A stretch of 64,000 nt of DNA, from contig OX387189.1 in NCBI GenBank assembly GCA_947561395.2, positions 27,342,329 to 27,406,328 on the forward strand. The letters are read 5' to 3'. The translations under genes were made by a program, and so were the position numbers. Of this stretch, positions 33,943-64,000 are shown one piece after another. Position 1 is the first letter of the stretch; each line of letters starts with the position of its first letter. This DNA comes from Buxus sempervirens (lineage: Eukaryota > Streptophyta > Magnoliopsida > Buxales > Buxaceae). Under the pieces are notes generated by a model. It was not told the origin of the DNA and did no database searches. It saw nothing but the letters and a program-made list of their open reading frames with translations.

Positions 33943-34180
33943 GGAAATCAACTCGCATAGTTTTCCGGAAATCAACTTTCATAGTTTCCCGGAAATCAAC
34001 TCTCGTAGTTTCCTGGAAATCAACTCTCGTAGTTTCTCGGAAATCAAATCTCGTAGTTTCCTGGAAATCAACTCTCGTAGTTTCCTGGAAATCAACTCTT
34101 GTAGTTTCACAGAAATCAACTCTAGTAGTTTCCCAGAAATCAACTTGTAGTTTCCTGGAAATCTACTCTTGTAGTTTCCT
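33943..34180 (+). repeat. 24-bp tandem array, GGAAATCAAC...GTAGTTTCC units
   Basis: Ten nearly identical 24-bp units, each opening with GGAAATCAAC and closing with GTAGTTTCC, so each can pair GGAAA with TTTCC as a small hairpin. It lies in the leader of the Tat-type element, 700-950 bp before gag. Confidence 0.9.
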
Positions 34181-38672: not shown

Positions 38673-38676
38673 CAAC

Positions 38677-38736
38677 TGGTGACTCTGCTGGGGAAGATTT
38701 GCTAGTTGTGATTTAAATCCCTAGCGGAGTCGCCAG
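38677..38736. other. Two opposed primer-site-like sequences at the fold-back centre
   Basis: TGGTGACTCTGCTGGGGA (+ strand, from 38677) and, on the minus strand, TGGCGACTCCGCTAGGG (from 38736). Each follows the end of one LTR by four bases, as a primer site would. About 25 asymmetric bases separate them. Confidence 0.7.
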
Positions 38737-38739
38737 TTG

Positions 38740-41719: not shown

Positions 41720-43006
41720 TAGAGTTGTAGCACAATGAACAGCAAAGAACAGACACAACTCAAAATTGCACGTTTGAAAGACACCTCATTAATTGAACTT
41801 GCTTTGGTCAAACAAATGAGTGATAAAAAACATGGATTTGAAGATAGCCAATGAAACCCTTGCTTAAAGTCTGACGGGGTGGCGTCTCTTCCTTATCTCA
41901 GATTTCTTTGAGCTCTCGTGGCTATGAAAAGAAATCTAAGACAAGCAAATTTTAAAAAAGTGTGGGTTAAAATTGACCTCTGCAAACTGAATTGCTTTTG
42001 ATGTTTTTCACTTTACAACTCAACAATAAGGAAAGAAATATTTTATTGAATTTTTCTGATTGATTTTCTTATTTGATTTATGTGGGTGCCATTTGATGCC
42101 CAAACCTGTGTTTGAATATTTCTCAGCTTGCTTTTGCTTCTTCATCTTCTTGCTCTCTCAATAATGATGTATGTGTCGTTGCTGCCCATAACCTGCCTTC
42201 ATTCTTTTCAACTGCCTAAGTGAATGTCTCTTCTTAATTGATTGATTTGAAAATCATGATCTATTGATCTAACCTCATGCCCTTACAACCCATGATCTCT
42301 CATTCATGCTTTCTTACTGCCCCAGTAAAATCCTTCTTCAGAATTGGAAACCTTTGTTTAAAGGAGAAAACATGCAACTGCTTCGAAGCTTCTTCTTTTT
42401 TTTTCAAACCCGAAAACTAAGGCCTAACTGCTTCTTCCAGATGCTGTAATTAATTTCAATGAAAAGCCAGAGGGAAAGACACTGAGCATGCCTCGGTTTT
42501 GATTGCTTGAAGAAGTATTTGCCCTTCAGCAGAGATGATCCTCTTTTTTCCTTTTTTTTCTTTTTTTTCTTCTTTTTCTCTTTCTTCTTTTTTTTCTTCT
42601 TTTTTTTCTTCTTTTTTTCTTTTTTTTTTTATCTCTTTTTCTTTCTTTTTTTTTCTTCTTTTCTTCTAAAATACATTGAAATATTTCCCCCTTTCTGCAA
42701 CTTTGGTTACTTGACCACCTGAATCAAATTGAGATGATTGATCGACGCTTCTCTCCAAGAATGAAAGTTCTTGTCTTGATGAGCAACTGAGGGTGTCTTA
42801 ACATCCAAGGATGCAAGCAGGGTTGGTTTACTTTCTTGGGTACTCTCCAGGATGATCAAGTGAGGGGGCCTGGCTCTTATCAGCCCAATGCAGAGACAGT
42901 AATTAGCTTCAGGGACAGGAACTTCATGGTCCTAGTAGGTTTGAGGTCTTCTGTCCTCTATCTTCCTTTGCGGGTTCTTTGGTAGTTTGGAGCGACCTAG
43001 GGGATT
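41720..43006 (-). other. 3' region of minus-strand Tat element
   Basis: Non-coding DNA between the LTR and the antisense ORF. It is partly similar to 62270-62500 in the + copy. It holds a T/C microsatellite at 42541-42665, whose counterpart in the + copy is the A/G run at 62077-62220. The poly-F frame over it is an artefact. Confidence 0.6.
42541..42665. repeat. T/C-rich microsatellite
   Basis: Runs of six to ten T broken by single C or CTTC over about 125 bp. It is purine-rich in the element's sense orientation. Confidence 0.9.
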
Positions 43007-43594
43007 GTGATCCCAAATGGATATAAGGACTTCCTTGGGCCACTTATACCAGCCACCATGGGGCTAAATGCCCGATTGATGAAGGAATGGTTCTATGCTC
43101 GTTTCATGCGGGGCTCTGTCTTTTCTGAAGCCCATATGAAGGACTACCTTTTCTGGATCAAAGAGCAGGTTCAGAATCATGCCCTAATACCAGAGGATCC
43201 TCCTGCTGTTCTTGCACCTACTTATGAGGATATATTGGTTTCTGAGAGAGCATCCCACAAGAGGCTTCAACAAATTTGGGTACGAGAAGCTCAAGAGCTT
43301 AGGATACGAGGCCTTGATCTAGAGAGGCAAATTGAAGAGCAAGTATCTCGCCGTACTACTTTGGAAAAGCAACTCGAGGAGCAAAGACAGGCTCGCCGCT
43401 TTGAAGTCCGAGTGCTGCGGCAGAAGCAGCAGGATGCTTTAGCCAACCTTAGAGGCATGAGGATCAGGCAGGCACTCTCAGATGAGGTCATCTTCTTTTT
43501 GAGTGATCCGGATGTAGAGGGAGCTTCTGAAATTATTGCGGCTCAGGCGGCCCGAATTCGCGAGCTTGAGGAACGACTAGGGGATAGGGACTAG
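43007..43594 (+). CDS. Antisense ORF of Tat element, coiled-coil protein
   Basis: It reads against the element, between its integrase and 3' LTR, which is where Tat elements are known to carry extra antisense ORFs. The open stretch is 195 codons, with an N-terminal part MIPNGYKDFLGPLIPATMG and LMKEWFYARF that reads as the middle of a larger protein. From about residue 85 it has a long charged heptad-rich coiled coil (LDLERQIEEQVSRRTTLEKQ and on), ending IRELEERLGDRD. The ending resembles the tail encoded antisense in the + copy near 55250 (IRELKALV). It may be the last exon of a PMD-type gene; the N-terminal domain is not found here. I cannot name a function. Treated as a fossil; this piece looks open. 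Confidence 0.6.
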   Translation: MIPNGYKDFLGPLIPATMGLNARLMKEWFYARFMRGSVFSEAHMKDYLFWIKEQVQNHALIPEDPPAVLAPTYEDILVSERASHKRLQQIWVREAQELRIRGLDLERQIEEQVSRRTTLEKQLEEQRQARRFEVRVLRQKQQDALANLRGMRIRQALSDEVIFFLSDPDVEGASEIIAAQAARIRELEERLGDRD

Positions 43595-44545: not shown

Positions 44546-45676
44546 TCAAGGAAAATACCTCTTTACTGCATCAGAGTTAATTGGCTCAGTAAAATCTTTT
44601 CCATCCATTTCTGTCAAGATGAGTGCACCCCCTGACAGGACCTTCTTGACGACATAAGGCCCTTCCCAATTTGGCTTGAACTTCCCGCGAGGATCTTCCA
44701 AAAATGGTAAGATTTTCTTTAGTACCAAGTTTCCTTCTTGAAAAGTTATGGGCTTCACCTTCTTATTGTAAGCCCTGGCCATTCTCTTCTGATACAATTG
44801 GCCATGACAAAGCGCCTTCAAGCACTTTTCCTCTATCAGATTGAGTTGATCATGTCTTGACTGTATCCATTCAGCTTCTTCCAATTCTACTTCCATTAGC
44901 ACTCTCAATGATGGGATTTCAACTTCCACAGGTAAAACTGCTTCCATTCCATAGATTAGGGAGTACGGGGTTGCTCTAGTAGAAGTTCGGATTGAGGTCC
45001 CGTAGGCATGTAGAGCAAGCAGTAGCATTTCATGCCAATCTTTGTAACTCACTACCATCTTCTGAATGATTTTCTTTATATTCTTATTTGCTGCTTCTAC
45101 TGCCCCATTCATCTTTGGTCTGTACGGAGCGGACTTGTGATGGGTAATCTGGAATTGCTCACACATCTTCTTCATATCCTTGTTCTTAATATTTGAAGCG
45201 TTGTCTGATACTATGGTATTTGGTAGGCCATAGCGGCAAATAATGTTGTGCCTCAAAAACTTAAGAACATGGCTACTTGTGATATTCGCATATGAAACCA
45301 CTTCTACCCATTTGGTGAAATAGTCGATTGCTACAAGTATGAATTTGTGCCCATTCGATGCCTTAGGAGAAATCATGCCAATGACATCTATGCCCCACAT
45401 AGAGAAGGGCCATGGTGATGTCATGTTATGAAGCTCACTTGGGGGTGCATGTTTGTTATCCGCATATATTTGGCATGGATGACATCTCTTGACATGTACA
45501 CAGCAATCGTGCTCCATCATCGACCAATAGTATCCCAACCTCAGAATCTTCTTTGCAAGCATATGTCCATTCATACGGGGTCCACAGACTCCTCCATATA
45601 TAGTTTCAATCAATCTTTCTGACTTAGCCTTAGCAACACATCGGAGTAGAATATCATTATGTGACCTCTTGTACAA
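44546..45676 (-). pseudogene. Tat/Ogre-type integrase
   Basis: Open over 376 codons. In order: a zinc-binding region with CHPCQIYADNKHAPPSELH, a core with acidic positions in WGIDVIGMISP, LPNTIVSDNASN and NGAVEAANKNI, and a C-terminal part with FKPNWEGPYVVKKVLSGGAL. Wording such as PWPFSMWGIDVIG and YFTKWVEV is typical of Tat-lineage integrase. The enzyme joins element DNA to host DNA. It lies downstream of the RNase H pieces on the minus strand. This stretch looks whole, within an element that is broken overall. Confidence 0.9.
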
Positions 45677-46165
45677 CTATCCACCACTTAGTAGGAACTG
45701 ACCGACTAATCTCTGTATTGTCCTTTTCTCAATAGAAGTAACATTGTCTGGTAGACTCCGATCGTTCAAGAAATTTTTGCTGTCTTGAAACCACAGTACT
45801 TCCTCTTCTGGTGCTCCCTCTAGAACAAGACAATAAGCTGGTTCATCTCTGACCTCAATTTCTAGTGGTTTAATATCTACACCTTTTGGCATGCTGACCA
45901 TCGAAGCCAATGTTGCTAGAGCATCCATGAACTGATTCTTGGCCCTTGGCATATAGTTGAAGGAAATTCAAGTAAATTTTGTGCTTATCTCTTTCAAATA
46001 ATGGTGATATGGGATTAGTTTATGATCTTTGGTTTTCCATTCACCAGTTGTTTGGAAGATGATAAGACTCGAATCTCCATATACGTCAAGTTCCTCCACT
46101 TCATGGTCTAGAGCAGCTTTCAACCCAATCATGCATGCTTCATACTCCGCAATATTATTTGTGCA
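45677..46165 (-). pseudogene. Second RNase H (aRH) and linker, Tat-type fossil
   Basis: The minus strand carries a piece with NQFMDALATLASM followed by KPLEIEVRDEPAYC, the usual end of the extra, archaeal-type RNase H domain and the linker to integrase in Tat elements. A second RNase H after the normal one is a hallmark of that lineage. Confidence 0.75.
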
Positions 46166-46833
46166 CTAGAATCTCAATTTTACTGCAATCGGGATGTGTG
46201 ACCCATCTGACTTGACCAATACTGCCCCTATTCCATTTCCATTCATGTTGGCGGCCCCATCGAAGAACATCTGCCAAGAGCTTTCATTTTCCTCTTCTTC
46301 AATAAACAGAATTGCCTCATCAGGAAAGTTGGTCTTCAAGGGTTGGTATTCTAGTGGAGGATGTGCAGCCAGGTGATCGGCAATTGCTTGACCTTTAATC
46401 GCCTTCTGAGTAATGTATGTGAGGTCAAACTCGGATAATAGCAACTGCCACTTTGCCGTTCTGCTAGTTAGTACTAGTTTCTCAAATAAGTACTTCAAAG
46501 GATCCATCCGGGATATCAATAATGTGGAATGACTAAGGAAGTAATGCCTTAGTCTTTGAGTAGCCCACACTATAGCGCAACAGGTCTTTTCCAATGGTGA
46601 GTACTTGGCTTCATATTCCGTGAACTTTTTACTCAAATAGTAAATGGCCCTTTTCTTTCTACCATTCTCATCATGCTGCCCCAAAACACATCCCATCGAT
46701 GTTTCCAACACTAATAAGTACAGAATCAGTGGTCTTCCTGGAGTTGGTGGCACTAGCACAGGTGGATTCAGTAAATACTCCTTTATTGTATCAAAGGCCT
46801 GCTGGCAATCCTCATTCCAAACTGTCGGGTTAT
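46166..46833 (-). pseudogene. RNase H and start of aRH, Tat-type fossil
   Basis: Motifs: VWNEDCQQAFDTIKEYL (RT connection), LVLETSMGCVLGQHDENG, RAIYYLSKKFTEYEAKYSPL (RNase H), then FFDGAANMNGNGIGAVLV opening the second RNase H. At 46834 a solo LTR C interrupts; RT continues at 50187. Confidence 0.88.
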
Positions 46834-47404
46834 AGGTAATCGCCCAAATTTTGATCAAACCAAAAAGAAAAAAGAAGAAGAAGAAGAAAACAAAAAAATG
46901 TGCTAAAAGACAGCAAAAAAGTCAAACCCTGAGGGGACAAAAGCTAACTTTTTGATCAATTGAAGATTGGCCACCTTGCTTTATCTCAATGGATAGAGAA
47001 TTCCGATACGGTTCCAATGCAACTGAGTTTGCTGGAATCAAAGTCCGGATGAAAGATCTATGGGCCGGTCAAACTTGAGGGGGAGCCGAAAGTTGACTTT
47101 CTGCTAAACCCCGAATCAGTTGCTTAATCCTATCCCAATGGATAGAGGACTCCGATAAGGTTCTAATGCAATTGAATTTGCCCAAATCGGAGTCCGGATA
47201 AAGAAGATATGAGCAGTTGAAGTTTCCGAGCAGCAAAACGCAGCAAAATATCTCGGGGGGCAATCTTTAAAAATCAAAAACTTGCTAAATATCTCAGGGA
47301 CTAAACCAAAATTCGTAGGGGGCAATCTGCAGACATCTAAAAGTGTCAAATCGGTCAAATCAGTCGAATCGGTCAAGTCGAGGGGCAATCTGTAATTTTT
47401 TGAT

Positions 47405-47672
47405 TTGTATTCGATCAAATATGTCGGATACACATACTTTTGTGTATATCCGACATTATTGGTCAAATACAAGAGATACGCCATGCGATTCGCGCCGATT
47501 CACTGACGGATTTGCACAGAAAAATTAAAATTTTCAAATAATTATGTTTGTATCCGACATTTTTTGTCGGATAAGAAGGAAGTGCAGTGTATCCGACATG
47601 AAATGCTGGATACAATGGAGGTATAGTATATCCGACATTAAATGCCGGATACAAAAAGTTTTCTATAAAAAG
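47405..47672 (+). promoter_or_regulatory. Palindromes and TATA box of family C LTR
   Basis: The cluster has about five TATCCGACA...TGTCGGATA motifs; 47551-47574 has perfect 9-bp arms around six bases. The last copy (47627-47656) ends only about 8 bases before the TATA box TATAAAAAG (47664-47672). Confidence 0.75.
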
Positions 47673-49012
47673 GCAACAGCAGCCCCATTTCGTGGGTTGG
47701 CTTGTCTTAGGTTGTTTCCACCCCTTCTCCCCCATTGTACCTGGTCCGAAACCTCCCACTTTAATCCCTCTTTGCTCCCCAAACCCAACCACTTCCCTGC
47801 TTGACCTATTTACCCCTCCTTACTCTCTTTTCTTCCTCACTCAAGAACAAGGAAAAGGAGAAGAAGCTGCTGTTGGTGGCCAAAGGAGGAGCTCCAGCCA
47901 CTTCATTTGTCTCAAGGAGGCTCGAATACACCTTTCTAGGATTCAAATCGCTCAAGGTAATGTTCCCTCATACATTTTGTATCATATATATGAAAATGGG
48001 TCCTTTTGCATGAAGTCTAGAAAAGTATTGTTTTTATTCCGTTTTAAGCTATTCCCCCACATGATCTTTATGCACTTGCTCTCCGTTTCGCCATGAGAAA
48101 GTCTCCAAGGGTGAGGGAGGTCTCATGTGCGACCCCATGAGAGCATGGATGATGTTTTCGCATACTTTAAGGGCTTCTTAAGCCACCATTTCGTAAGGAC
48201 TTCATGATTTCAGGAGGGAGCATGTTCCCTCCCATTTTATGCTATCTTTTGTACCCCATGAGTAACCCCCCTTGTTCCCTTCTTTAATTGTCTTTTTTAG
48301 AATAACTGAATAATCTGCATTTATAGGATGCTGAAAATAATACGCTACGCACATTGAGTTTATGCTCTAGTTTTCATTTGCATATGGCCTAGTTGATGCT
48401 GTATGCATGCATGGATTAATCAATGTTTAAGGTATGTGTTTTACCCTTTTTAGGGATCATGTCAACATCTACTTTTACCAGCTGTTTTGTGTGTTTACAC
48501 CATGATTCTACTTCTGTTTTAATCACTGTTTTGAGTCATAAAAACGTACATTCGGTCTTGTACATATTTCATAGATAGGTTTACTTTTGCATGCATTGAA
48601 GATATATCTAGGCGCTCCGCATATTCCACTATTTAATGTAATTCGCATGCACCTAAAACTTGTTTTGTAGCTCTTGATGATGTAACTCATTACTTAGTTT
48701 AGTTTTAGCTTGAAACATGCTTAGGGATGCCCTAGTTTTTTTGTTGTTTCATGCAAAGTTAATGATGTGTTTGTGTGGGAAAAAGAAGCTAGAATAGGGA
48801 TACTTGAATCCCTGTTTGTGCAGTGATTGGGGATAGAAAAAGGGAGGAGGCAAATCCCAGCCCCCATCTTTTCCCTTTGGTTCTCAAAAGCTCTTCAAGA
48901 GAAGCCAAGTAGCTCTCATCTGAACCACTATGGGCCCACACAACCCCTAGAACATCTCAAGAATTCCAGAAACCCAAGCCCATTGCCGAAACCCAAAAAT
49001 GGCATTTTCTAA

Positions 49013-49117
49013 CTGATCCGACAACTCAAGTCGGATCAGCCGTGTTGTTGTATGTAGCCAACAACTTAGGTCGACTACAAGTGCTTCTGTGTGTAGCTGA
49101 CATCTCAGGTCGGCTAC
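49013..49117. repeat. Three GACAACTCA-type hairpins inside family C LTR
   Basis: At 49013-49039 perfect 10-bp arms CTGATCCGAC and GTCGGATCAG enclose seven bases. Two diverged copies follow, at about 49050-49080 and 49091-49117 (arms GTGTAGCTGAC and GTCGGCTACAC, one mismatch). Similar ones lie at 59480-59590 in the sister LTR. The loops share the form A(A/T)CTCA. Confidence 0.75.
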
Positions 49118-49199
49118 ACCATTGAAATTTCATTTTTGCTTTTTTTTTGCTGTCATGTTATTCTTTGTGATCTTATAGCCAAACTAGATGAACCTGTAG

Positions 49200-49760
49200 G
49201 GTTTTCGGGTGATTCGAAAACCCAAGATGGGCCGTGGACCGACCCAATCCAGTTTGATTTCCAGTGGGCCTTCCAATGGGGCCCACCAAGCCCGACAAAC
49301 TACTTTTGCTAAATAGAGATAAACAAACCAATTGAGCGGGCCAAACCCGCTGGAGGCCCACTAAGGCCCGTTTTGAAGCATGTTGCTTAGATTTAGGCAT
49401 GGTGTGGCCAACACCACGGGTAGGGCCTATCGGGCCCACTAAAGCCCATTGAACCAAGCTAACTTAGGGTTTCAAAACCCTAATTCAGGAAGCCTTGGGC
49501 TTTCAAGCCCAAGCCCAGGCAAAGGGCTCCAAGCCCAAAGCCTGGCTCATTTTGGTAAAGTTAAATAAAAGATGAATTAAGTCATTTGGCAGCCAATTGT
49601 GGGGCCCGCTAAGGGGCGCACAAAGCAATCCTTGCCCACTTTGCATGAAAATCACTTAATTTCCAACTTGAACATCAAATAAGATCAAATTCACTTGAAC
49701 CAAAGCCCAAAGGGCCTCTCAGGCTATACTGAGGCCCACAATGAGCCATGTGGGCTTAAC
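49200..49760 (+). repeat. GGCCCA/TGGGCC-rich zone of family C LTR
   Basis: Well over a dozen GGGCC or GGCCC motifs, often TGGGCC, scattered in both orientations. The same zone recurs at 59690-60260, 31420-31740 and, in reverse, 26180-26580. TGGGCC/T is the core of plant site II elements bound by TCP factors (established); use here is inference. Confidence 0.7.
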
Positions 49761-50186
49761 CAGGCCCACCAAGGGAGCCGCAAGCGTTCCAACGGGGCTT
49801 GCCCGATCAGACTCAAATCACTCTAAGCTAAGAAGATAAAATCAAGTAAAGGGACCCACACCACTTTGGTGGTCCCGCCAGACTTAACCAAATTGAATGT
49901 TGGATTAGGAATCGGGTGAGTGAGAGACCAAAAGTTGACTCAAACCAAGAAAACCCATGGGACCCGTCATTCGACGGGGCGGATCGGGGTGTTTACGGAC
50001 TTCCCCGGACTGTAACCGGGACCCTACCTTAGAATCTCAATCCGCAGACCGCCTACTAAACAAACCTAGGCACCCCAGTGTCTTCCTACACCCCATCAGG
50101 CAGTGGCGACTCCAATTTCCCATTTTATCCTCCCGGAGGCATGCACAACTTGTGTGCGCCCCGCCGTGCGACCATGCGCACATTAT

Positions 50187-50886
50187 CCTTTATCAGAAGC
50201 TTGAAAATCGGTTCACAGATAGCAGTGAACTGTGCTATGAACCGGCTTATATATTGAATTCTTCCAAGAAAACCACGAACCACCTTCTCCGTTCTGGGTG
50301 ATCGCATCTCAATTATGGCCTTGGCTTTAGTTGGGTCGATCTCAATTCCTCTTCGGCTCACTATAAATCCCAGCAATTTCCCTGATGTAGCCCCAAAGAC
50401 GCATTTAGCCGGGTTAAGCCGTAGACTATACTTCCTGAGCTGATCAAACACTTTCTTCAGATTGATCAAGTGGTCCTCTTCTTTGCATGATTTGGCAATC
50501 ATATCATCCACATAGACCTTCATCTCCTTGTGGATCATATCATGGAATAGTACTGTCATGGCTCGCTGGTATGTTGCCCCAGCATTCTTAAGCCCGAACG
50601 GCATGACTGTGTAGAGGAAGGTACCCCAAAGTGTAATGAATGCTATTTTCTCTTGATCTTCCTTAGCCATCTTGATCTGATTGTACCCATAGAAGCCGTC
50701 CATAAATGAGAACAGGCTATGTACAGTAGTGTTGTCCACCAAGATGTCGATGTGTAGAAGTGGAAAATCATCCTTTGGGCTTGCCTTGTTCAGATCTCTA
50801 TAGTCCACGCACATTCTGACTTTCCCATCCTTCTTTGGTACTGGCACTATATTTGCGAGCCACTCGGGGTATATGGAGACCGCCAA
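50187..50886 (-). pseudogene. Tat-type reverse transcriptase fossil (minus copy)
   Basis: RT motifs: PVPKKDGKVRMCVDYRDLNK, SFMDGFYGYNQIKMAKEDQ, FGLKNAGATYQRAM, the catalytic YVDDMIAK, and LLGFIVSRRGIEIDP with RGFLGRIQYI. It is the mirror of 54056-55060, at roughly 90 percent identity by eye in the protein. RT copies element RNA into DNA. Confidence 0.92.
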
Positions 50887-52085
50887 AAATCCTGCTTATA
50901 ATATCTTGACCTTCAGGGTCCATTCAGGTTTCAATCTTCTCAACTTCTGCTTAATTGGCTTAACCCCTGGCAAAATTGGTAACTTGTGCGCCACCATGTC
51001 AGTGTCCAACCCCGACATGTCCCGATATGACCATGCAAATACATCTTTGTAGTCTGCCAAAAATCGTGACATTTTGTTATGTTGCACCTTAGATAGGCAT
51101 GCCCCAATCTTTACTATTTTTGGGTCATCTTCGGTCCCAAGATTTATTGAGATGGTCTCCTCAATATTAGGTTGGACCCCATTTTCATGACGTTCCAATT
51201 GATATTCAATTTCCTTTTGAAGGTCTTCTTCTTCGACCTCGGTCTCTTCTTCGATCCCCATGAGGTCAAAGTTGAGCTCAAGGTCGAAGTCATATTCAAC
51301 CAGGTCTAATTCCATTTGCTTATATGGTTCATAAGTGGTTTTGACCTTTTTGAAAAAATTAAATTTTCTAGAAAAAATAGGAAAATCTTTTTGGGTTTTT
51401 TGTGAGCCTTCTAAAAAAACTTCCCCTAAAGACAAAGGCTCATTAGGACCTTCAGGGAAATGGCATTCCACTAATGGAGTTTTTTTTTTTGAAGCCGCGT
51501 CAATTTGCCAAACAAACACTGCTTCAGAGGTAAGGTGAGTTTCCTTCCAATTGTTCAAAATAAATTTTTCAGGAGCAGGGGAAATGGTGCAAGCCTGCTC
51601 CTCAAGCTTTGAATCCGATGCCATCATCACCGGATGAGTTGTACTGCCCTTTTCTGCCACGGGGCTTAATCCAGATATGACCTCATCTAGAATTTTTACC
51701 GCTACTCAATCAATGAACTGCAGCTCCTTATCTTCTTCTATTCTTTCGCCTTCAGTCATGGCGAAGAAAGCCCCGATATCCTCGGAGAAGTTCGTCTGCT
51801 GCTCTGGCTGTGGCCCAGGCCCGCCCACTGTTTCAATTGGAGAAGATGGGTTATAGGGTTGGAACAGAAGGCTTTTGGAATGGGTTGATGTTGCAGTATG
51901 GAGGCTTGGACTGATCCATGGGAGGAGACAGTTGGATCGTATATGAGGGTTTAGGAAAATTTTCCCTTAAATGAGGGAATTTTCCTCTACTTCTCTTCTC
52001 TGAATTCTCTCATTCTTCTTGCTTTGTCTTTCTCCATCCTCTGGGTTTAAATCCCAACTTTACTTTAGGGACCAGCTTCTTTGTG
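50887..52085 (-). pseudogene. Protease-RT linker and gag-side fossil, Tat-type (minus copy)
   Basis: An acidic stretch (EEETEVEEEDLQKEIEYQLE), NLGTEDDPKIVKIGACLS and DYKDVFAWSYRDMSGLDTDM lead into RT, as in Tat/Ogre elements. Further up lies a match to the + copy at 52975-53440, including the AGGAAAATTCCCTCATT piece. The homology ends near 52085. Confidence 0.8.
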
Positions 52086-52386: not shown

Positions 52387-53604
52387 ATGAATCCGGAAGA
52401 GAATCAAGCCACCATCCCTGTTCAAGATTTTGTTCAACTATAAGAGCAAGTGGCCGGACTGGCCAAAATGTTAGGAGACTTACTGGCGGCTCAAGCCCAA
52501 AAAGCCCAAGCCCAAAACCAAGCCTCTACTTCCCATCAAGCACCGCCACCTGAAACCTACGTTCCACCTCCAGCTCAAACCATACCTAAACCCATTTCTG
52601 AACCGGTCTCTGAACCTATTCTGATTAGGGAAAATATCGTGGAATTTGAGAAAGAGATGGAAAAGGAAAGAGCAAGGGAGGAGATGGAAATGAAACTGCT
52701 ACACAAGATAGAGAGGATTCAAGAAGAACTCAAAGAGGTGAAGGGGGGAACAGTTATGGAGGATTCACCTGACGTACCCTTCATCAATGTGGATTTAACT
52801 GTTGACAAAATTTCATTCCACTCATTTCAGTTTGAAATGGTCAATTTCATACCTGGGGGGTGTGAGAAAAAGGAGAAGATGACTACTGCAGAGAGGATGG
52901 TAAAGAAAGTGATGGAAAAATATCACTTCCACCTAGGGAAAGGTCTGGGGATAAATTTGCAAGGAAGATTGGAGCCAATAAGGGCAAAGAAGCTGGTCCC
53001 TAAGGCAGGATTGGGGTTTAAATCAAGAGGATGGAGAAGGCTGAAGCAAGAAGAAGGGAAGAATGCAGAGAAGAAAAGTAGAGGAAAATTCCCTCATTTA
53101 AGGGAAAATTTTCCAAAACCCTCTTGCACCATCCAACTATCTTCCCCCATAGATCTGTCCAAACCTCTGTACCACAACATCAATACATTCCAAAAGCCTT
53201 CTGTTTCGACCCTGCAACCCTATAACCCATCTCCTACACTTGAAACAGTAGGCGGGCCTAGGCCACAACCAGAACAGCAGATGGACTTCTCCAAAGATTT
53301 CGGGGCTTTCTTCACCATGACTGAAGGCGAAAGAATAGAAGATAAGGAGCTGCCTTCCATTGCTTGGGCAGCGGTGAAAATTCCAGATGAGGTCATATCT
53401 GGATTGGGCCCTGTGGTAGAAAAGGGTTGTACAACTCATCCGGTGATGATGGCATCGGATTCAGAGCTTGAGGAACAGGATTACACCATTTCACCTGCTC
53501 CTGAAAAATTTATTTTGAATAATTGGGAGGAAACTCCCCTTACATTTGAAGCGGCGTTTGTTTGGCAAACAGACGCAGCTTCCAAAAAAAAAAAACTCCA
53601 TTAG
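52387..53604 (+). pseudogene. Gag-side fossil with G-patch-like motif (+ Tat copy)
   Basis: It starts MNPEENQATIPVQDFVQL, then an AQAQ/P-rich region, a charged coiled coil (EKEMEKERAREEMEMKLLHK), and a Gly-rich motif FHLGKGLGINLQG like the G-patch-type element found downstream of protease in Tat elements. A capsid-like core is not evident. The 3' half mirrors 51000-52085 of the minus copy. Broken overall. Confidence 0.75.
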
Positions 53605-55060
53605 TGGAATGTCATTTCCCTGAAGGTCCTAATGAGCCTTAGTCTTCAGGGAAAGTTTTTTTAGAAGGCTCACAAAAAACCCAAAAATATTTTTCTATTT
53701 TTTCTAGAAAATTTACTTCTTTCAAAAAAGTCCAAACCACTTATGAACCATATAGCAAACGGAATTAGACCTAGTTGAATATGACTTCGACCTTGAGCTC
53801 GACTTTGACCTCATGGGGATCGAAGAAGAGACTGAGGTCGAAGAAGAAGACCTTCAAAAGGAAATTGAATATCAATTGGAACGTCATGAAAAGGGGGTCC
53901 AACCTAATATTGAGGAGACCGTCTCAATAAATCTTGGGACTGAAGATGACCCAAAAATAGTGAAGATTGGGGCATACCTATCTGATGTGCAGCGTAGTGA
54001 AATGACACAGTTCTTGGCAGATTACAAGGATGTGTTCGCTTAGTCGTATTGGGACATGCCGGGATTGGACACTAACATGTTGGTGCACAAGTTGCCAATT
54101 TTGCCAGGGGTTAAGCCAATTAAGCAGAAGCTGAGAAGATTGAAACCTGAATGGACCTTGAAGGTCAAGGACGAAGTGGTCAAGCAATTCCAAGCAGGAT
54201 TTTTGGCTTTCTCCACGTACCCCAAGTGGCTTGCAAATATATTACCAGTGCCAAAGAAGGACGGAAAAGTCAGGATGTGCGTGGATTATAGAGATTTGAA
54301 CAAGGCAAGCCCAAGGGATGATTTTCCACTTCCACACATCGACATCTTGGTGGACAACACTGCTGTACATAGCCTGTTCTCATTTATGGACAGCTTCTAT
54401 GGGTACAATCAGATCAAGATGGCTAAGGAAGATCAAGAGAAAATAGCATTCATCACACCTTGGGGTACCTTCCACTACACAGTCATGCCGTTCGGGCTTA
54501 AGAATGCTGGGGCAACATACCAGCGAGCCATAACAACACTATTCCATGATATGATCCACAAGGAGATGGAGGTCTATGTGGATGATATGATTGCCAAATC
54601 ATGCAAATAAGAAGACCACTTGATCAATCTAAAGAAAGTGTTTAATTGACTAAGGAAGTATAGTCTATGGCTTAACCCGGCTAAATGCGTCTTTGGGGCT
54701 ACATCAAGGAAATTGTTGGGATTTATAGTGAACCGAAGAGGAATTGAGATTGACCCAGCTAAAGCCAAGGCCATAATTGAGATGCCATCACCCAGAACGG
54801 AGAAAGAGGTTCGTGGTTTTCTTGGAAGAATTCAATATATAAGCTGGTTCATAGCACAGCTCATTGCTATCTGTGAAGTGATTTTCAAGCTTTTGAGAAA
54901 GGATAACCCGACGGTTTGGAATGAGGATTGCCAGCAAGCCTTTGATACAATAAAGGAGTATTTACTGAATCCACCTGTGCTAGTGCCACTAACTCCAGGA
55001 AGACCACTAATTCTGTACTTGTCAGTGTTGGAAACATCGATGGGATGTGTCTCGGGGTCA
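53605..55060 (+). pseudogene. Protease-RT linker and reverse transcriptase fossil (+ Tat copy)
   Basis: The linker (EEETEVEEEDLQKEIEYQLE, DYKDVFA) is followed by RT motifs PVPKKDGKVRMCVDYRDL, FGLKNAGATYQRA, YVDDMIAK and LLGFIVNRRGIEIDP, then VWNEDCQQAFDTIKEYL at the start of RNase H. Sense coding similarity stops near 55060, where sequence of the antisense PMD gene begins. Broken in several places. Confidence 0.9.
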
Positions 55061-57879
55061 ACAGCCCGGACTGGAGACGGGCCAGGAACAGGAGGGTCTG
55101 GCTCAAATGCAATGCCATGATCTGGGGCCGAACCCTGCAAAAGTCAAGCAATTCATATCAGAACAACACAAAAATATAGAAATAGAAGAAATAGCATCAC
55201 AAAAGGCTATATACCTGCTGTGTCCCGAGCTCAACCTCCAAGTCTGAAATCCTGCTGTCCCTCTTTGCAACTAGAGCCTTTAGCTCTCTGATCCGAGCAT
55301 CTCTCTAGGCCACGGTCGCATCATGCTCAGCAATCATATCATCGACTGCGGTCACTGACTTTGAAACTAGTCCCGCAGAGCATTCAGCTCATCTACCTGC
55401 CAATAAGAATGGGATTAGAATCATAAATGCTGAACTGAAGGAAATGAGATGGGAGAGGGCAAGTCATAACTTATAGTATCGTCATGGACCCGGATAAAGA
55501 TCCCACCGATCTCTGTCACTCCAGCGCGAGTGGGTCGATCCATCAGGCACCCAATGGATACCCTCCTGATCCACTCATCATAGTCCCCAGCCACTGTGAG
55601 ACCCTCTACATCCTCCCATTGATCAAACTGGTCAATATCAAACCCGGGTAGGAGGGTGGTGGGACCAACAGGAGGAGGAGGAACTGGAATGCGAGGTACG
55701 CCAGTGTGCTGATAGTACAGGCGCTCTCCTAGGTACATAACCCTACCAAGCCTCCCAAGGAAGCACTGATAGGGCTGACGTCAGAGATCCTGATCAAAAG
55801 CATCGTGTACTATGAGCTCACGGGCCACCTTGTCATCCACATCCTCAAGCGGGCTGATAAGAGCTGCATAGAAGAAAGGGATGTCAGAAATAAACAAGGC
55901 ATGAAAGAAAGAGAAAAGAAATAAAGGTTTAAGGAAGTTTACATCGGATCGTCGGGCTTGGTCAAAATGAACCCGAGCGGTATGAGGCTGACTCCTGTTG
56001 GCGTCTCCTTCCAGCACGGACCACCGTATGGCAACAGGAAACTCAGCAACACCAGGCACAGGGGATGGACGGAAATAAGTCATATAGGTATACATAAATA
56101 CATCGCAAAAGAGAAATCGGTCAAGGATAAAGAAGATAAAATTTTGGGGGATAAGACAAAGCAAATGTATCCAGTACCTGCAGGATCTGCCAGAAGAACC
56201 GGCAACTAACACCATCACCCCTCGGAGTGGCCAAACCTCGAACCACTCGGCATAATCCAGCCAGCATGGTCCCATATATAAGCCGACCCCATGCTAACTA
56301 CCTGGTCTGGCTGAAATCTCTCAGGGCATCCAAAAAGAGAGGACTAACACCGGTCGTGTCCTCCTAGAAGAAGCAACTCCCAAGCATCAGCAAGAAAACA
56401 TGTCTGAAAATAGGTGCGAAAGCCGCGTCATCCCCGGTAATGGTCTCATGCCTCCTATGAAAGTGATCAGTAAGGCTCTGTAGTAGCCAACTGATAGAAA
56501 GACGGCCGCTCCTTCCATCCCAAGCATCATCAGGCAGGACCTCGTAACCCAGGAGAGAACTGATGTTTGCATCTGAAGGCCGGTCCATCGCTATAGTCCG
56601 CCCCGCTAGAGGGATGTCGGTGATCATGACAAAGTCCGAAGGACGAATCCCCAACTCAACATCTGGCAGATGGAAGGATTGTGTGTCGAGGAAGTATTGC
56701 TCCATCATGGCAAAGATGAGAGGGCGGTCAGCTCGAAATGACGGGATACAAAGAAAATAGTCAAAGCGGCACCTACTGAACTCACGCCTAAGTGCCGGAG
56801 AAAGCGCCTGAACTAACTCACTGAACCTCCCCACCTGCCTCGTAGATGGGAAGGAGGATATGAAAGAGGAACATTAGCACGGATGCACATAGAGGGGTGG
56901 CGGTCCAAGCCACTAGGAGCTCTGTATCATGAACAGACTCTCTCAACTCCTCTGAAACCTCCAAACGGAAGTCTGAGGCAATGCCCTCTTGACCTGAAGC
57001 TCTGGCCCGGCCTCGGCCCCTCTCTCTGGCTCGGCCTGAGCCCCTCTCTCCAACTCTACCTCGACCTCTCTCTCCACTCTACCCCGACCTCGAGCGGGAG
57101 CCACAACGGGCTAAAAGTCAAAAACATGAGGTGAGAAGGTTTGTGTAAGGAGAAAAAAGAGGAAGCGAAAGAAGAAAGAACAAGTGGTCTACCTCGGTAG
57201 AGCCCTCTACAGAGCTCTCTCTGGAATCATCTAATGGCTCGGATAAGGTGGAACTTTGATCAGAATTGATCCTAGCTCGAGAAGAAGAAGGCTGATCAGC
57301 TTTTAAGCACCTCATTTTTGCGCTCTCGGAAGAGCCGGAAATGCAAAACCCAGCTAAAAAGTCAAACCCTGAGGGGTCAAAAATTGACTTTATGATCAAG
57401 TGAAAATTGGCCACCTTGATTTATCTCAATGGATAGAAAATCCCGACACGATTCCAACGCAATTGAGTTTGCTGGAATCGGAGTCCGAATGAAGGATCTA
57501 TGGGCCGATCAAACTTGAAGGAGAGCCGAAAGTTGACTTTTTGTTGAACCCTGTACCTGGTGCTTAGCCCTATGTCATTGGATAGAGGACTCCGATAAGG
57601 TTCTAACGCAACTAAGTTTGCTCAAATCGGAGTTCGAATGAAGGAGATATAAGCTGTCGAAGTTTCCAAGCAGCAAAACTAGAAACTGCACATGTGGCAA
57701 AGAAACTGCACACGTGGCAACAAACGCAGCAAAATATCTCAAGGGGCAATCTTTAAATATCCAAAACTTGCCAAATATCTCAGGGACTAAACCAAAATTC
57801 ACAGGGGGCAATCCGCAGATATCCAAAAGTGTCAAATCGGTCAAATTCGTCAAGTCGAGGGGCAAATATGTAAATATCT

Positions 57880-58140
57880 TGCTTGTATCCGACCATATAT
57901 GTTAGATACACATGCTTTTCTTCATATCCGACATTTATTACCAGATACAAGAGATTTGCCTACGAGATTCGCTGACAGATACGCGCAGAAAATTAAATTT
58001 TGGAAATAATTGTGTTTGTATCCGACATAATATGCCGAATACAAAGGAAGTGCAGTGTATCCGACATAATATGCCGGATACAAAGGAAGTGTAGTGTATC
58101 CGGCATTAAATGCCGAATACAAAAATGTTTCTATAAAAAG
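57880..58140 (+). promoter_or_regulatory. Palindromes, 40-bp triplication and TATA box of family C LTR
   Basis: Two diverged TATCCGAC palindromes (57880-57955) are followed by three tandem 40-bp units (58015-58054, 58055-58095, 58096-58124). Each unit holds GTATCC(G)ACATAATATG and its inverse. The TATA box TATAAAAAG is at 58132-58140. Confidence 0.8.
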
Positions 58141-58194
58141 GCAACAGCAGCCCCATTTCAGGGGTTGGCTCTTCTTGGCTTGCTTCCACTTCTT

Positions 58195-58218
58195 CCCCCC
58201 CCCCCCCCCCCCCCCCCC
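58195..58218 (+). repeat. Poly-C run
   Basis: Twenty-four consecutive C, just downstream of the LTR TATA box. The length may be a sequencing or assembly approximation. Confidence 0.85.
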
Positions 58219-60669
58219 GCGCATTGTTCCAGGCATGAAAGCCCTTCCTTTTCCCCCACCTTGCTCCCCAAACCCTAAACACTTTTCTTTTGCCTATTCT
58301 ACCCCCACTTTCCTTTCTTCTTCTTCTTCATTTTTCACCCAAGCAAGAAGAGAGGAGCTGCTGTTGGTGGCTAAAGGAGGAGCTCCAGCCACTTCATTTG
58401 TCTCAAGGAGGCTCGAATACACCTTTCTAGGATTCAAATCCCTCAAGGTAATGTTCCCTCATACATTTTGTATCATATATATGAAAATGGGTCCTTTTGC
58501 ATGAAGTCTAGAAAAGTGTTGTTTTTATTCCGTTTTAAGCTATTCCTCCACATGATCTTCATGCACTTGCTCTCCGTTTTGCCATGAGAAAGTCTCCAAG
58601 GGTGAGGTAGGTCTCATGTGCGACCCCATGAGAGCATAGATGATGTTTGCACACACTTTAAGGGTTTCTCAAGCCACTATTTTGTAAAGCTTTGATGATT
58701 TCAGGAGGGAGCATGTTCCCTCCCATTTGTGCTATCTTTTTATACCCCTACATAACCCCCCTCTCTTCCCTTCTTAAAGTTTTTTTAGGTTGGGTGAGTA
58801 TGTCAAGTTAATGAGATCATGATAAAAGTTACATGTGATAAATGCTAGATTTTTATATAGCTTAGTTGTCCTTTTAAGCTTGCATGAACCCATTATCATG
58901 TTAAGTGCGTGTGCTATTGCTCCGAGGATCATGTGAAAAATCCTTTCTTGCTATTTCCTCCTGTTTTACTATGATTCTTATGCCACTCTAGCCACTGTTT
59001 TGACCTCCTAAGGTCACTCCTACTTGGCCTAGAATAGGTCTTACTTGCATGCTCATCCTTTGCTTACTAGAAACATGTCTTGGTATGTGTATACATCACC
59101 ATCTGGCATGAATCTACATGCGTGGAAATCGAATTTTGGTTCTTAGTTGTCCATTGTTTAGTTAGTTCAATCTTAGCCTGGAAGTGTGTTCTTCAGTTTG
59201 GTATCATCTCATGTATATGCATGCTTGTTTCTGTTGGGGGCAAAGGAACTAAGGTAAGGGATACACAAATCCCTACTCATCTTTGTCTTTGTTTTGGAAA
59301 GGGAGGATATGCTCTTGGTCTCCCTATATGCCCTTTAGTGTTGAAAACCCCTTCTAGAGAAGCCATGTGGCTTCATCTGAACCACCGTGGGCCCACACAG
59401 GGGCCCACGAAAATGCTAGAACACCCCAGAAGACCTAAGAACCCAAGTCCAATGCAAAAATCCGAAAAAACAGCTTCTGTGTGTTGATCTAACAACTCAG
59501 GTCGGATCAACAAGGCCTTATTCGTAACCGGCCAAAGATGCCGGATACACTGATCCTTATGTGTAACCGGCATCTCAGGCCAACTACACTGCCAGATTGC
59601 CTTTTTGCTATTTTGTGTTCTTGTGCTACTTCCTTGATTTGTTTGACCAACCAAGATGAACCAGAAGGGTTTCCGGGTGACCCGGAAACCCAAGATGGGC
59701 CATGGACCGACCCGGTCCAATTTGGTTTCCAGTGGGCCTTCCAACGGGGCCCACTAAGCCCAACCAACTTACTTTTAGTTAAGTAAAGATAATCAAACTG
59801 AACGAGTGGGCCATACCATTGGAGGCCCACCAAAGCCCATTTTTTAAGCATGTTGCTTAGATTTAGGCATGGTTTGGCCGAGACCACGGGTAGGGCCTAT
59901 CGGGCCTACTAAGCCCTTTGAACCCAACAAAGGTTAGGGTTTCCAAACCCTTGGGCTTTCAAGCCTAAGCCCAGGTAAAGGGTCTCAAGCCCAAAGCCTG
60001 GCCCATTTTGGCATAACTAAATAAGATAACTCAAGTCACTTGGCAACCAATTGTGTGGCCCACCCAGGGGCCCACAAAGCAATCCAGACTCACTTTTGCA
60101 TGAAATTGAACTTAATCTCAAAACTTGAACTGCAAATAAAATCAATTCATTGAGCCAAAGCCCAAAAGGCCTCTTAGGCTTAGTCTGAGGCCCACCAGAG
60201 GATACGTGGACCACACTTGGCCCACCAAGGAATCCACGGGCCTTCCAACAGGGCCCGCCCAATCTGACTCACATCACTTTAAGCTAAGAAGATAAAATCA
60301 AGTAAAGGGACCCACACCACTTTGGCGGTCTTGCCAGACTTAACCAAATCAAATGCTGGATTAGAAACCGGGTGAGAAACAAAATTGACTCAAACCAGGA
60401 TGGGACCCGTCATCCGACGGGGTGGACTGGGGTGTCTACGGACTTCCCCAGACCGCAACCGAGACCTTACTTAGAATCTCAAGCCGCAAACCAATCCTTA
60501 ATAGAAAAACTTAGGCACCCTGGTGTATGCTGCATCCCATTAGGCAGTGGCGACTCCAAACAATCCCGAGGCACGCATCATCTTGCTTGCGCCTCGTCGT
60601 ACGACCGAAATCAGGTACGCACATAGTTGGATCAACCTCCTCTTGTACACGGGAGCGACTCCTAGCCAT

Positions 60670-62485
60670 CTACAAGAAATAGGGAAGTGTTTTAACTAAC
60701 AAATTTGTGTTAAATTGTTTATCAGAAATTTTGGTTCTAAAACATTTTATCTTAATCCTAAAAGATCTCTACAATGTTTAATCTCTCCTAATGTGTTGTG
60801 GTTTCAGGATGTATTCCGAAAGGCAAAACAAATACGCAAACACAAAAACAAAACAAACAGACCAATATTGCAGTTTCAGGATATAAAGCCTACTTCAAAG
60901 ACCACCAAGATACCAAAGTATGGTAAATTTGGGTGGTCATGCAAACTGGAGAAGTAACCCGCAAGGCAAAGATTTCCCAAGGATAAGTCATGTAAAGGTC
61001 CTGGTAGTTGGAACACCGCATTGATCAAAAGTGTACTAAAATCAGATCAGGCAGGTTGCAAGAAAAGGAGAAGAATCATAGCATTTGGATCAAATTTGAA
61101 AATGGGCATGTTCCCATCAGAGCATACAATTCAATGTGAAATAAGCAATTCAGTTGAGGTTCACCACCGGCAGGCAATCAAATCTTAAGGAATTGCAGAA
61201 ATTCAGGTCAAGAATTGGCAAGGCAGATTGGGAAGTCATAGCAGAAAAGAAAAAAAAACAGCAACAACAGCGTGGTATTAATATGAAAATTCCATCACCG
61301 TAATCAGAAACATGTGGGGAAGTAAAGACAGATTGAGGCATAAAGTGCATTTGAAAATTTTCACCATCGGCAATCCAGTTCGAGGTGAGCAAAAGCATTG
61401 GAGAAAGACAAAATAAAAATCATACAATTCAGTGTTGTCAAGGCATCACCAAAGCAACAGGCCGCATGTGATCAATGAAATGGAACCATGGATATGCAGT
61501 CAACAATGATGGATTTTTCACAGCAAACAAAGAAGAAAAAAATGTATGCTCGTCCAATGTATGCAGGATTTAACATAGCAAGAGAAAAAATGTATGCTCG
61601 TCCAATGTGTGCAGGGATTTAACATAGCAAAGAAAAAAAAGAAGAAACATGTATGATCACTGACCCGGTTGGATTGACAAAAGCAATGGGGAGATGGAAG
61701 TCTAAGTATGAAGTCGGATTAGCGAAGAACAGGTCGCCGGAGCTCAGAAGAAATCGCTGGAGTAGGTGTGACAGTGTTGGGCAGTGAAATCACCGGAAAT
61801 CAGGAACTAGGGCTTGGCAATAGGCGAACACCGGAGTTGAGTCGAGTTGCCAGAATCAATGGAAGTAGCCGGAGGGAATAAAAGTCGCCGGAGAAGAAGG
61901 AAATCGAGCGTCGCAGTCAGAGGAGACGGAGTCAATATCCGGTGGATTCATTCGGCAAAGAAGAGAAATGGAGAAAGTTTGCAATCGTGCGCGCAGGTCT
62001 TATAACTAGGCGTATTCGACGATTTCTATCGAATACAAATAGATACTTGCATATCCGACCAAATGCATCGTATACAAACAGAAAAAAAAATAGAAAAAAA
62101 AATAGAAAAAAAATAGAAAAAAAAATAGAAAAAAAATAGAAAAAGAAAAGAAAGAGAAAATAGAAAAAAAATAAGAAAAAAAAAGAAGAAAGAAAAAAGA
62201 AGAAAAAAAGAGAGAAGGGATTTATTCATTCAGTTTTTATCTGACATGGTTTGCTGCAAAATCAATGTTTTCAAAAATCTTATTTTGGGCTTAAAATCCA
62301 CTTCATAGCCATGAGAGCTCAGTGGAATTTAAGACAGCTTGGAGATATGCCCCCTTAAAGTTAGGGATTTTTGGCAAATCTCCACCCAAAATTATTTTGC
62401 AAAATTGAACAACCAAGCAAATCAGGGTTAAAGGAAGCGCAATTTGAGTTTGTCTAATCTTTGCAGTTCATTACTTTGCAACTCC
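60670..62485 (+). other. 3' region of + Tat copy, with antisense 5' leader-like part
   Basis: No sense coding is seen. On the minus strand 61930-61690 is GC-richer with many CTCCGGCGA/TTCCGGTGA motifs, like a plant mRNA 5' leader, and lies upstream of the antisense PMD start at 60669 with room for an intron. It also has a short duplication of AAAATGTATGCTCGTCCAAT (61540-61620). The region 62270-62485 resembles 41720 onward in the minus copy. Confidence 0.5.
62077..62220 (+). repeat. A/G-rich microsatellite
   Basis: Units of GAAAAAAAATA (seven or more) pass into GAAAAGAAAGA and GAAGAAAGA runs. It is the counterpart of the T/C run at 42541-42665 in the opposite copy. Confidence 0.9.
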
Positions 62486-62501: not shown

Positions 62502-63318
62502 TGTAGACACCCCAAATTGCACCTAAAAAGATGAATAATTGGCCAAGATCATTAAAAAGGGTGTTTTTCTTTTGTATCCAATGTAAATTATCGGATAAAG
62601 GCTTTTTCCTGTGTATCCGACATTAATTGTCGGATACAAATTGATTTGTTTGTATTCGACATTTAATGTCGGATACAAGGGGTTTTATTAGTATCTGACT
62701 TGAGTTGCTGGATACTAATATTTTGCTGCAGAAATTGGAAAATTCCAAAAGTTTTTACTTTTTATTGTCTTATCCCTATTCTAAGAGTGGGAATTCCAAG
62801 AAATAGCCTTAAGGTTTAAGTTGGTGGATTCTAGACATCATTTTGTGTCTAGCATTAGGGCACCTCTTACCCTAGCCTTTGCCTATAAATAAGAGGCCCC
62901 TCCTCAAGCAAATGGCCAAGAGTTGGAGATTGAAGAGCTCCAAGCGAAGAAGGGAACCTCTGCCCCATTGCTTCCAGAACCCAGGTAAGTCTTAACCTTC
63001 TTTTACTTTTATGTTCTTAAATTCTAGAATTAGTCTCTTCTTCTTCCTTTCTGTAGAATAATGGCCTGAATGTGTTTGAAACCCCATTCCCTACTCAAAG
63101 TACCTCAAGACTATCTCTAGCTGTAAAACGTGAAGAGAAAGCTAGGGGAAACGAGAATGGGAATGGAACCTTAGTTCTAGAACCCTCTTAATAGCCTATT
63201 GTTGTGTGAAACCCCATTTCCTACTCAAAGTACCTCAAGATTATTTCTAGCCGTAAAAGGTGAAGAGAGAACTAGGGGAAACGAGAATGGGAATAGAACC
63301 TTAGTGATTAGAACCCCT
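62502..63318 (+). mobile_element. Family A LTR, 3' LTR of + Tat copy, 5' part
   Basis: TGTAGACACCCCAAATTGCA, then palindromes (62575-62720), TATA box 62884-62892, a splice donor CCAGGTAAGTC near 62982, and two tandem units (63070-63310). Homology to family A ends near 63318, where family C sequence begins. Confidence 0.85.
62612..62892 (+). promoter_or_regulatory. Palindromes and TATA box of family A LTR
   Basis: At 62612-62638 perfect 11-bp arms TGTATCCGACA and TGTCGGATACA enclose five bases. At 62649-62678 a second palindrome with inner arms CGACATT and AATGTCG surrounds one T. Diverged copies lie on either side (62575, 62690). The TATA box is at 62884-62892. Confidence 0.8.
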
Positions 63319-64000
63319 CTTGATCAAGTGAAATTTGGCCACCTCGCTTTATACCATTGGATAGAGAATCTCGACACGGTTCCAACGCAACTGAGTTTGC
63401 AGGAATCGGGGTTCGGATGAAGGTTCTGCGGGCGGTCAAACTTAAGGAAAAGCCAAGAGTTGACTTTTCCTCGAATTCCGTGCCAAGTACCTAGCTTTAT
63501 ACCATTGGATAGAGAATCTCGACACGGTTCCAACGGAACTGAGTTTGCAGGAATCGGGGTTCGGATGAAGGTTCTGCGGGCGGTCAAACCTAAGCAGAGC
63601 CAAAAGTTGACTTTCTGCTAAAATCCTATCCAGAGGCCTACCCTAGGTCATTGGATAGAGAATCTCGACACGGTTCCAACGCAACTGAGTTTGCAGGAAT
63701 CGGGGTCCGGATGAAGGTTCTGCGGGCGATCAAACCTGAGCAGAGCCAAAAGTTGACTTTCTGCTAAAATCCGATCCGGAGGCCTACCCCTAGGTCATGG
63801 GATGGAGGGCTCCGATACGATTCTAATGAAACTAAGTTTGCCCAGATCGGAGTCCGGATGAAGAAAATATGAGCTGATGAAATTTCCGAGCAGCAAAACC
63901 GGCAATCTGCGCACGTGGCAAAAAGCTGCACACGTGGCGAGTTGCGCAGGAAAATATCTCGGGGATCAAATCCGTAAATATCCAAATATACAAAATATCC
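63319..64000 (+). mobile_element. Family C LTR, 5' part, with four tandem units
   Basis: Four units of about 145-150 bp (starting near 63350, 63500, 63647 and 63790), each with a GGATAGAGAATCTCGACACGG-type opening, CAACTGAGTTTGC and a GGTCAAAC...AAAAGTTGACTTT end. The first three are almost identical and the fourth is diverged. It then runs into the GCACACGTGGC and AAAATATCTCGGGG block seen at 57690-57740. The usual family C start is absent, and the element runs off the right edge. Confidence 0.75.

Follow-up and report, generated by a model that had tools for sequence, protein, structure and literature searches.

A dead Tat retrotransposon copy in Buxus sempervirens whose relatives probably carry a selected pair of antisense, intron-bearing PMD genes

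Results

Gene A in the window and its two-gene family

The stretch analyzed here (the window) comprises 64,000 nucleotides of Buxus sempervirens (contig OX387189.1, positions 27,342,329 to 27,406,328) and carries on its minus strand, from 61930 to 55061, a multi-exon gene of the PMD family (gene A) located within a plus-strand retrotransposon of the Tat lineage. The exons were mapped with the help of aligned relatives (Table 1). The original prediction, made from the letters of the window, had placed antisense PMD exons with GT/AG borders between pol and the 3' long terminal repeat (LTR) of the plus-strand Tat copy, and the alignment of the relatives confirms this arrangement: the junction at 57192/57111 is formed by the donor and acceptor of intron 1, and the ATG at 60669 starts exon 1. 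The gene apparently has its own leader too, as had been proposed, with a TATA-like sequence at 62005, a CCGGCGA-rich stretch and an AG immediately 5' of the ATG.

The window copy is a dead member of its family, with an insert in exon 1, the gene end deleted, and two splice sites (acceptor 3 and donor 4) and several frames broken. Positions 57301 and ~60625 are contiguous in 28 of 29 relatives (the 29th, L016, has no match upstream), so the 3.3 kb between them are a later insert; it resembles a second insert at ~46905-50125 and looks like a solo LTR, for which no clear target-site duplications were seen on inspection by eye. The end of gene A was taken away by a deletion at 55057/55061, given that the relative L061 matches the window to 55051 and the Tat inverted repeat ends at 55057.

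In a 10-kb relative, L063, gene A has seven coding exons and six introns and encodes 735 residues with a glycine- and arginine-rich tail; the first five introns are in phase 0 and the sixth interrupts a codon after its first base. Gene A is followed, in the same orientation, by a second gene (gene B) of two exons and 528 residues. Downstream of gene B, L063 and a further relative, L064, match the window at 42597-44709 and 42642-44679, respectively, from a gene B remnant into the integrase end of a minus-strand Tat copy, and the match of L063 from gene B to integrase is the basis on which the remnant was assigned. Because gene B of both relatives runs into integrase-matching sequence, genes A and B lie tail to tail with pol. 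As judged from sequence, the antisense position of the two genes is between integrase and the 3' LTR, that of gene B in the relatives with the region intact; in L061 and L062 other LTR sequence interrupts the region downstream of gene B. A host gene without Tat context is ruled out by the same matches, which run up to the integrase open reading frame (ORF).

The family is large. In the 676.5-Mb genome, a six-frame search with gene A exon 2 yielded 2727 candidates, and the best 150 scored, the window included, showed 73-100% identity and were mostly stop-free; exact starts of gene A exon 3 numbered 518, which indicates a high-copy family. For gene B exon 2, the best 134 scored of 5844 candidates were 96-100% identical. 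The survey of other copies thus found the same antisense exons in many of them. On one contig (C1), groups of an LTR palindrome described below lie 20.1-20.7 kb apart in four cases among the places listed, as read by eye, and in each case a gene A place lies between them (for instance, groups 3409377 and 3429788 flank the gene A place 3426753). We read these distances as full elements of more than 20 kb, within the size range quoted for Ogre in PMC6431247.

Domain content and lineage

The PMD assignment had been put forward together with a profile search as its check, and the outcome differs between the window and its relatives. Window exon 2 matched PMD (PF10536) weakly (E 2.7e-4, 20.6 bits, under the Pfam cut-off of 34.9), and the other three window ORFs in the same profile search had no PMD match. 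In contrast, the exon 2 frame of L063 reached 51.4 bits and its spliced exons 1-5 reached 66.5 bits, so that L063 belongs to PF10536 above the curated cut-off and the window piece itself falls below it. Gene B of L063 matched both DUF7745 and PMD, with 64.2 and 53.3 bits in the exon 1 frame and 90.2 and 72.3 bits when spliced, and showed no match to solved structures at E up to 1. Genes A and B are only slightly alike by BLASTP (21% over 78 residues, E 0.008), and their kinship therefore rests on the PMD profile and a common intron. PMD matches thus exist, and gene A is not a host gene lacking a Tat setting.

The host element was assigned to the Tat lineage of Ty3/Gypsy by its Gypsy-type reverse transcriptase (RT), RNase H and integrase together with an additional RNase H of the Ogre/Retand type. 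The minus-strand copy matched RVT_1 (1.1e-28), RT_RNaseH_2 (1.1e-27) and rve (4e-14), and the plus-strand copy RVT_1 (2.8e-18) and RT_RNaseH_2 (7.2e-8). The additional RNase H (RVT_3, 1e-10, 42 bits) lies at 45968-46162 on the minus strand, between RNase H and integrase, and is missing from the plus-strand copy. The ORF preceding RT in the plus-strand copy (52444-53601) holds a G-patch domain (26 bits, cut-off 22). TRP28 (PF04195) was not matched at E up to 10 in seven L063 pieces nor at E up to 0.1 in the spliced pieces.

Constraint on genes A and B

The gene A alignment consisted of 30 rows, the window piece included, after dropping L059 (3.2-kb insert) and five loci (L010, L011, L018, L025 and L029) that are the same copies as L059-L063. 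GT/AG was kept in 25-30 of the 30 rows at each of ten sites, and donor 6 in 16. Introns 1-5 are present in 29 rows, L012 being without exon 3 and intron 3, so the gene lacks the mark of a retrogene captured as mRNA, the absence of introns. Apart from the intron deleted in L012, introns of 57-109 nt vary freely and exon lengths are mostly frame-preserving.

The ratio of nonsynonymous to synonymous divergence (dN/dS) was computed between two subfamilies of 11 and 16 rows (176 pairs; L012, L016 and L064 left out) and came to 0.13 for gene A (dN 0.183, dS 1.376); for L064 against group 1 it was 0.11. Third positions diverge (0.454) about as introns do (0.427), and first and second positions less (0.215 and 0.157). 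The two wrong frames of the gene strand gave ratios of 1.14 and 1.59; on the reverse strand, two frames gave 1.06 and 1.75, and the one with the third position in common gave 0.29. Outside the exon used as search query, the ratio was 0.11 in exon 1, 0.07 in exon 3, 0.24 in exon 4 and 0.30 in exon 5. Gene B was read in five copies, of which two (L063, L064) are open, one (L060) carries stops and a frameshift, and two (L061, L062) are truncated; its intron has GT/AG in all four copies that have it, and dN/dS was 0.07-0.12 in six between-subfamily pairs and 0.09-0.26 in the other four. These values suggest purifying selection on genes A and B as an old pair, on both of which the element may depend.

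Age of the pair and its introns

Another repeat family (L069) carries a homologue of gene A with 47% identity (334 of 709 aligned residues) and a PMD match of 83.4 bits, modelled with five introns and the last exon open. Its first four introns fall in the same alignment columns as those of L063, in phase 0; its fifth intron is shifted, within a stretch that aligns poorly, and nothing in L069 corresponds to intron 6 of L063. The spliced junction pattern of gene B gave 972 matches in the genome and is not discriminating, since the 3' end of the gene B intron resembles the exon end. A variant of this pattern occurred 12 times among the 100 matches listed. Nine of the 12 are preceded on the same strand, at a distance of 2.9-3.6 kb, by a gene A homologue from among the best 150 of 4332 candidates, with the pattern alone standing for gene B at these loci. 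This pairing suggests that the two genes have long been together. The spliced exon 2-exon 3 junction pattern of gene A was absent from the genome at 0-1 mismatches, against the 518 exact exon-3 starts, and its 26 matches at two (one match) or three mismatches (25) all read as intron 3' ends, so that this pattern showed no processed copy of gene A.

An intron after LQ lies at the same place and in the same phase in gene A (ILQ/VFM), gene B (ILQ/LWL) and L001 (LLQ/CWA), where the exon after the intron continues the PMD. L001 is only apparently borne by a Mutator-like element (MULE), since its transposase-like ORF scores 18.4 bits for SWIM, below the cut-off of 19.6. Together with L002-L005, which are 96-99% like it, it represents a low-copy intron-bearing PMD gene beside a SWIM-like ORF, perhaps that of a MULE, on five contigs. 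Three other loci (L006-L008) have long PMD ORFs uninterrupted after LQ (PMD 2-346) in open frames of 705-985 residues, L006 with one stop; we take them to be possibly of the genic PMD-B type.

Promoters and palindrome arrays

A 25-bp palindrome, GTATCCG-N11-CGGATAC, occurs in groups with mostly 39-bp spacing in the LTR and before genes A and B. The window has 27 palindromes with a gap of 11 (up to three mismatches), and with gaps of 10-12 there are 28 matches, against a mean of 1.6 in five shuffles. Of 56 matches in five relatives (at most two mismatches, gaps 5-19), 53 have an inner gap of 11, and the spacing is 39 in 32 of 39 intervals under 120; genome-wide there are 30,553 exact sites and none of the reversed control. 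Such arrays of a short motif in the non-coding parts of the element are a trait shared with the VANC system considered below.

Base 8 of the arm is G in 40 of 40 arms of two elements of subfamily G1 and A in 49 of 54 arms of three elements of subfamily G2, alike at all three promoters; these counts come from the five elements with all three arrays, with promoter stretches set by hand and with two arrays within other inserted LTRs left out (L061 9672-9790, mostly G with some A; L062 7821-7938, G). Another 19 loci, chosen for their resemblance to the window and therefore G2-like, had A at base 8 in 171 of 180 arms; among them, L041 lacked the palindrome altogether and L049 lacked an array. The inner 11 bases differ among the palindromes of one array. 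A second LTR-like family in the window (47407-47652 and 57885-58120) carries the same 25-bp palindromes, mostly with 39-bp spacing and with 13 A and 7 G arms, so the palindrome is not private to the Tat family. The palindromes at 57885-58120 are followed by TTCTATAAAAAGG.

Behind the last gene B palindrome, the TATA-like GCTATAAA stands at a constant distance in five of five relatives, ~120 bases before the ATG in L063. From the TATA-like sequence to the ATG of gene A there are 1032 bases in L063 and 1336 in the window. Candidate donors occur at the leader end (GTAAGT in L063, GTCAGT in the window) and AG directly precedes the ATG in 28 of 29 rows; a leader intron ending at this AG (before 60669 in the window) is likely.

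Neighboring features of the window

The two Tat copies of the window (44546-52083 and 52985-55057) stand head to head, with inverted arms 84-95% alike and ~0.9 kb between them, and the minus-strand copy carries its own LTR-like insert at ~46905-50125. Farther away, 35791-41660 holds a large pair of sequences of LTR type in inverted orientation (86-93% complementary), probably two LTRs head to head, and 33919-34158 is an array of a 24-base repeat resembling GGAAATCAACTCTCGTAGTTTCCT.

Table 1. Features of the window, with coordinates counted from its first nucleotide.
Feature	Position	Strand	Remarks
Gene A exon 1, first part	60625..60669	-	ATG at 60669, AG immediately 5' of ATG
Gene A exon 1, second part	57193..57301	-	Donor GT at 57192-57191
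Gene A exon 2, PMD-bearing	56178..57110	-	Frame damaged: five stops in aligned frame
Gene A exon 3	55943..56101	-	Acceptor AT, not AG
Gene A exon 4	55475..55863	-	Frameshift; donor AT, not GT
Gene A exon 5	55215..55396	-	Coiled-coil-like exon, frameshifted
Gene A exon 6, incomplete	55061..55134	-	Deletion fuses exon 6 to RNase H at 55057
LTR-like insert, 3.3 kb, splitting exon 1	57302..60624	+	Relative at ~46905-50125
Gene A TATA-like TTATAAG and CCGGCGA-rich leader	61664..62005	-	TTATAAG at 62005; candidate donor GTCAGT ~61664
Two palindromes upstream of gene A	62012-62036, 62051-62075		
Four palindromes in 3' LTR, 39-bp spacing	62574..62715		Precede CTATAAATA at ~62883
3' LTR start	62504..63327	+	Follows purine tract aaagaggggcag; match of relatives stops ~63327
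Partial pol of plus-strand Tat copy: G-patch ORF, RT, RNase H start	52444..55057	+	Remaining pol missing
Gene B exon 2 remnant	42597..43594	+	Antisense to neighboring minus-strand Tat copy
RNase H, additional RNase H (RVT_3), integrase of minus-strand Tat copy	44546..46921	-	

Discussion

The window holds a dead copy of a giant Tat element whose relatives carry two antisense, intron-bearing PMD genes, A and B, very probably kept by selection. In all likelihood both would be, or would have been, expressed as spliced antisense mRNAs, and their introns would persist because the genes are antisense and the packaged sense RNA bears splice sites only as complements, so that the introns would not be lost at reverse transcription. 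This protection follows from how retrotransposition works. The intron of EVADE, another plant LTR element, is in sense orientation. If true, the proposal would explain how an element that replicates via RNA can harbor intron-bearing genes, and it suggests that screens by ORF length overlook them.

Several observations weigh against this reading. Within subfamilies, the gene A ratios are 0.14 and 0.29, that of the window against its own subfamily is 0.24, and exons 1-5 are open throughout in just 8 of the 30 rows. The copies were chosen by exon 2 protein similarity among the best candidates scored, which favors a conserved exon 2; a dS of 1.4 approaches saturation, and pairs were lost where dS was undefined or fewer than 30 codons were available (85 of 176 pairs are left for exon 3). 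The TATA-like sequence of gene A is variable behind the palindromes (TTTATAAG in L063, TTTATAAAG in L064, TTATATTTAG in L061 and L062, unclear in L060). The 'DOWN' motif CATGCAGTTT of MAIN/MAIL1 targets (PMC9899485), considered as a match for the palindrome, is a different sequence, and both antisense expression and a palindrome binder are predictions, a host protein and an element protein being candidates for the latter.

As to function, we tentatively propose that the PMD proteins may be nuclear trans-acting regulators that either counter silencing of the MAIN/MAIL1 type or work on the palindrome arrays at the three promoters; nuclear action is proposed because of what is described for MAIN and MAIL1 (PMC5418596, PMC7156037, PMC9899485). 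It is a serious possibility, if short of probable, that their sole role is that of decoys or partners within the MAIN/MAIL1/PP7L silencing machinery, with the palindromes as host-factor sites: MAIN and MAIL1 silence transposable elements (PMC5418596, PMC7156037) and the palindrome is found with mixed arms in the second LTR-like family, but a single host factor would not predict an arm base 8 that differs by subfamily and agrees among three promoters.

The most specific version of a regulatory role, which we regard as unlikely, is a self-encoded, subfamily-specific circuit for transcription or anti-silencing in which at least one PMD protein would recognize the arrays governing the LTR and both antisense promoters, as a retrotransposon counterpart of VANC, with the antisense orientation letting the introns survive. 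We consider it rather doubtful, though slightly less so than the circuit, that the arm change between CCGG and CCGA reflects decay by deamination of methylated cytosine, or inheritance and gene conversion, instead of coevolution. The G to A change is a transition at a CHG site and just five elements with all three arrays were compared (two against three), whereas random decay would not leave arms this uniform (A in 49 of 54 in G2, G in 40 of 40 in G1) and the variable inner 11 bases within one array speak against wholesale conversion.

A role of the antisense transcript as RNA, through double-stranded RNA or interference with the sense promoter and irrespective of the protein, is very improbable; antisense RNA regulation has been discussed for plant aORFs (PMC7264820), but here two genes show selection at the protein level with constraint restricted to the frame. 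Recent capture of a host PMD gene, as DNA, by the window copy has next to no likelihood: the introns, the cell-type leader and the LQ intron shared with L001 would agree with it, but the gene recurs at the same place in a many-copy family with conserved splice sites and at 47% identity in another family, which rules such an event out. A capture peculiar to this copy is not supported: the gene is old, occurs throughout the family as one half of a pair and is under purifying selection. The introns it shares are compatible with a capture long ago or with the opposite course, in which host genes arose from the element.

For the selected antisense pair proposed here, the occurrence of PMD in Gypsy elements is already known. 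PMD-A1 and PMD-A2 are Gypsy-encoded and widespread in angiosperms (Ikeda et al., 2017, PMC5418596), as the PMDs described here are encoded by Gypsy elements; the main text of that paper contains neither 'intron' nor 'antisense', and the passages covered here describe no gene pair. The LQ intron common to gene A, gene B and L001 bears on the question raised there of the direction of transfer, from Gypsy elements to the host by domestication of PMD genes or from the host to the elements by capture. Among the eORFs of Ogre, PMD was found in 57% of elements (Neumann et al., 2019, PMC6317226); the definition used there, a single ORF of 250 codons or more, can miss multi-exon genes such as those reported here. 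The same paper describes, for Ogre and Retand, an extra RNase H placed between RNase H and integrase, which was found in the minus-strand copy of the window too. In a survey of LTR-element consensus sequences of many plants (PMC9289625), PMD was the most frequent extra domain, in Gypsy-type elements only, and the parts covered do not deal with orientation, introns or a second gene. Within the literature searched, neither an intron-bearing antisense gene pair nor such palindrome arrays were found, Steinbauerova et al. (2011) lying outside that scope and possibly containing more.

Antisense genes and introns have separate precedents. The aORFs of Retand, Grande and RIRE2 (Vicient, 2025, PMC11963269; Vicient and Casacuberta, 2020, PMC7264820) encode TRP28 in single frames, whereas the genes reported here encode PMD and DUF7745, have introns and gave no PF04195 match; gene23 of Grande has its own promoter and a nuclear product (PMC11963269, PMC7264820). 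Plant LTR elements are generally without introns, Ogre and EVADE being like genes A and B in having them (reviewed in PMC12786077), but the Ogre intron is in sense, between gag-prot and RT (PMC6317226), and those of genes A and B are antisense.

For the arrays, the closest working analogue is the anti-silencing system VANC of the VANDAL DNA transposons (Hosaka et al., 2017, PMC5735166), where arrayed short non-coding motifs likewise diverge together. Binding is shown there, whereas here a binder is predicted, the motif is a fixed-gap palindrome and the element a retrotransposon. A trans-acting regulator encoded by these Tat elements would perhaps be VANC-like, and the covarying arrays would provide a direct test of it.

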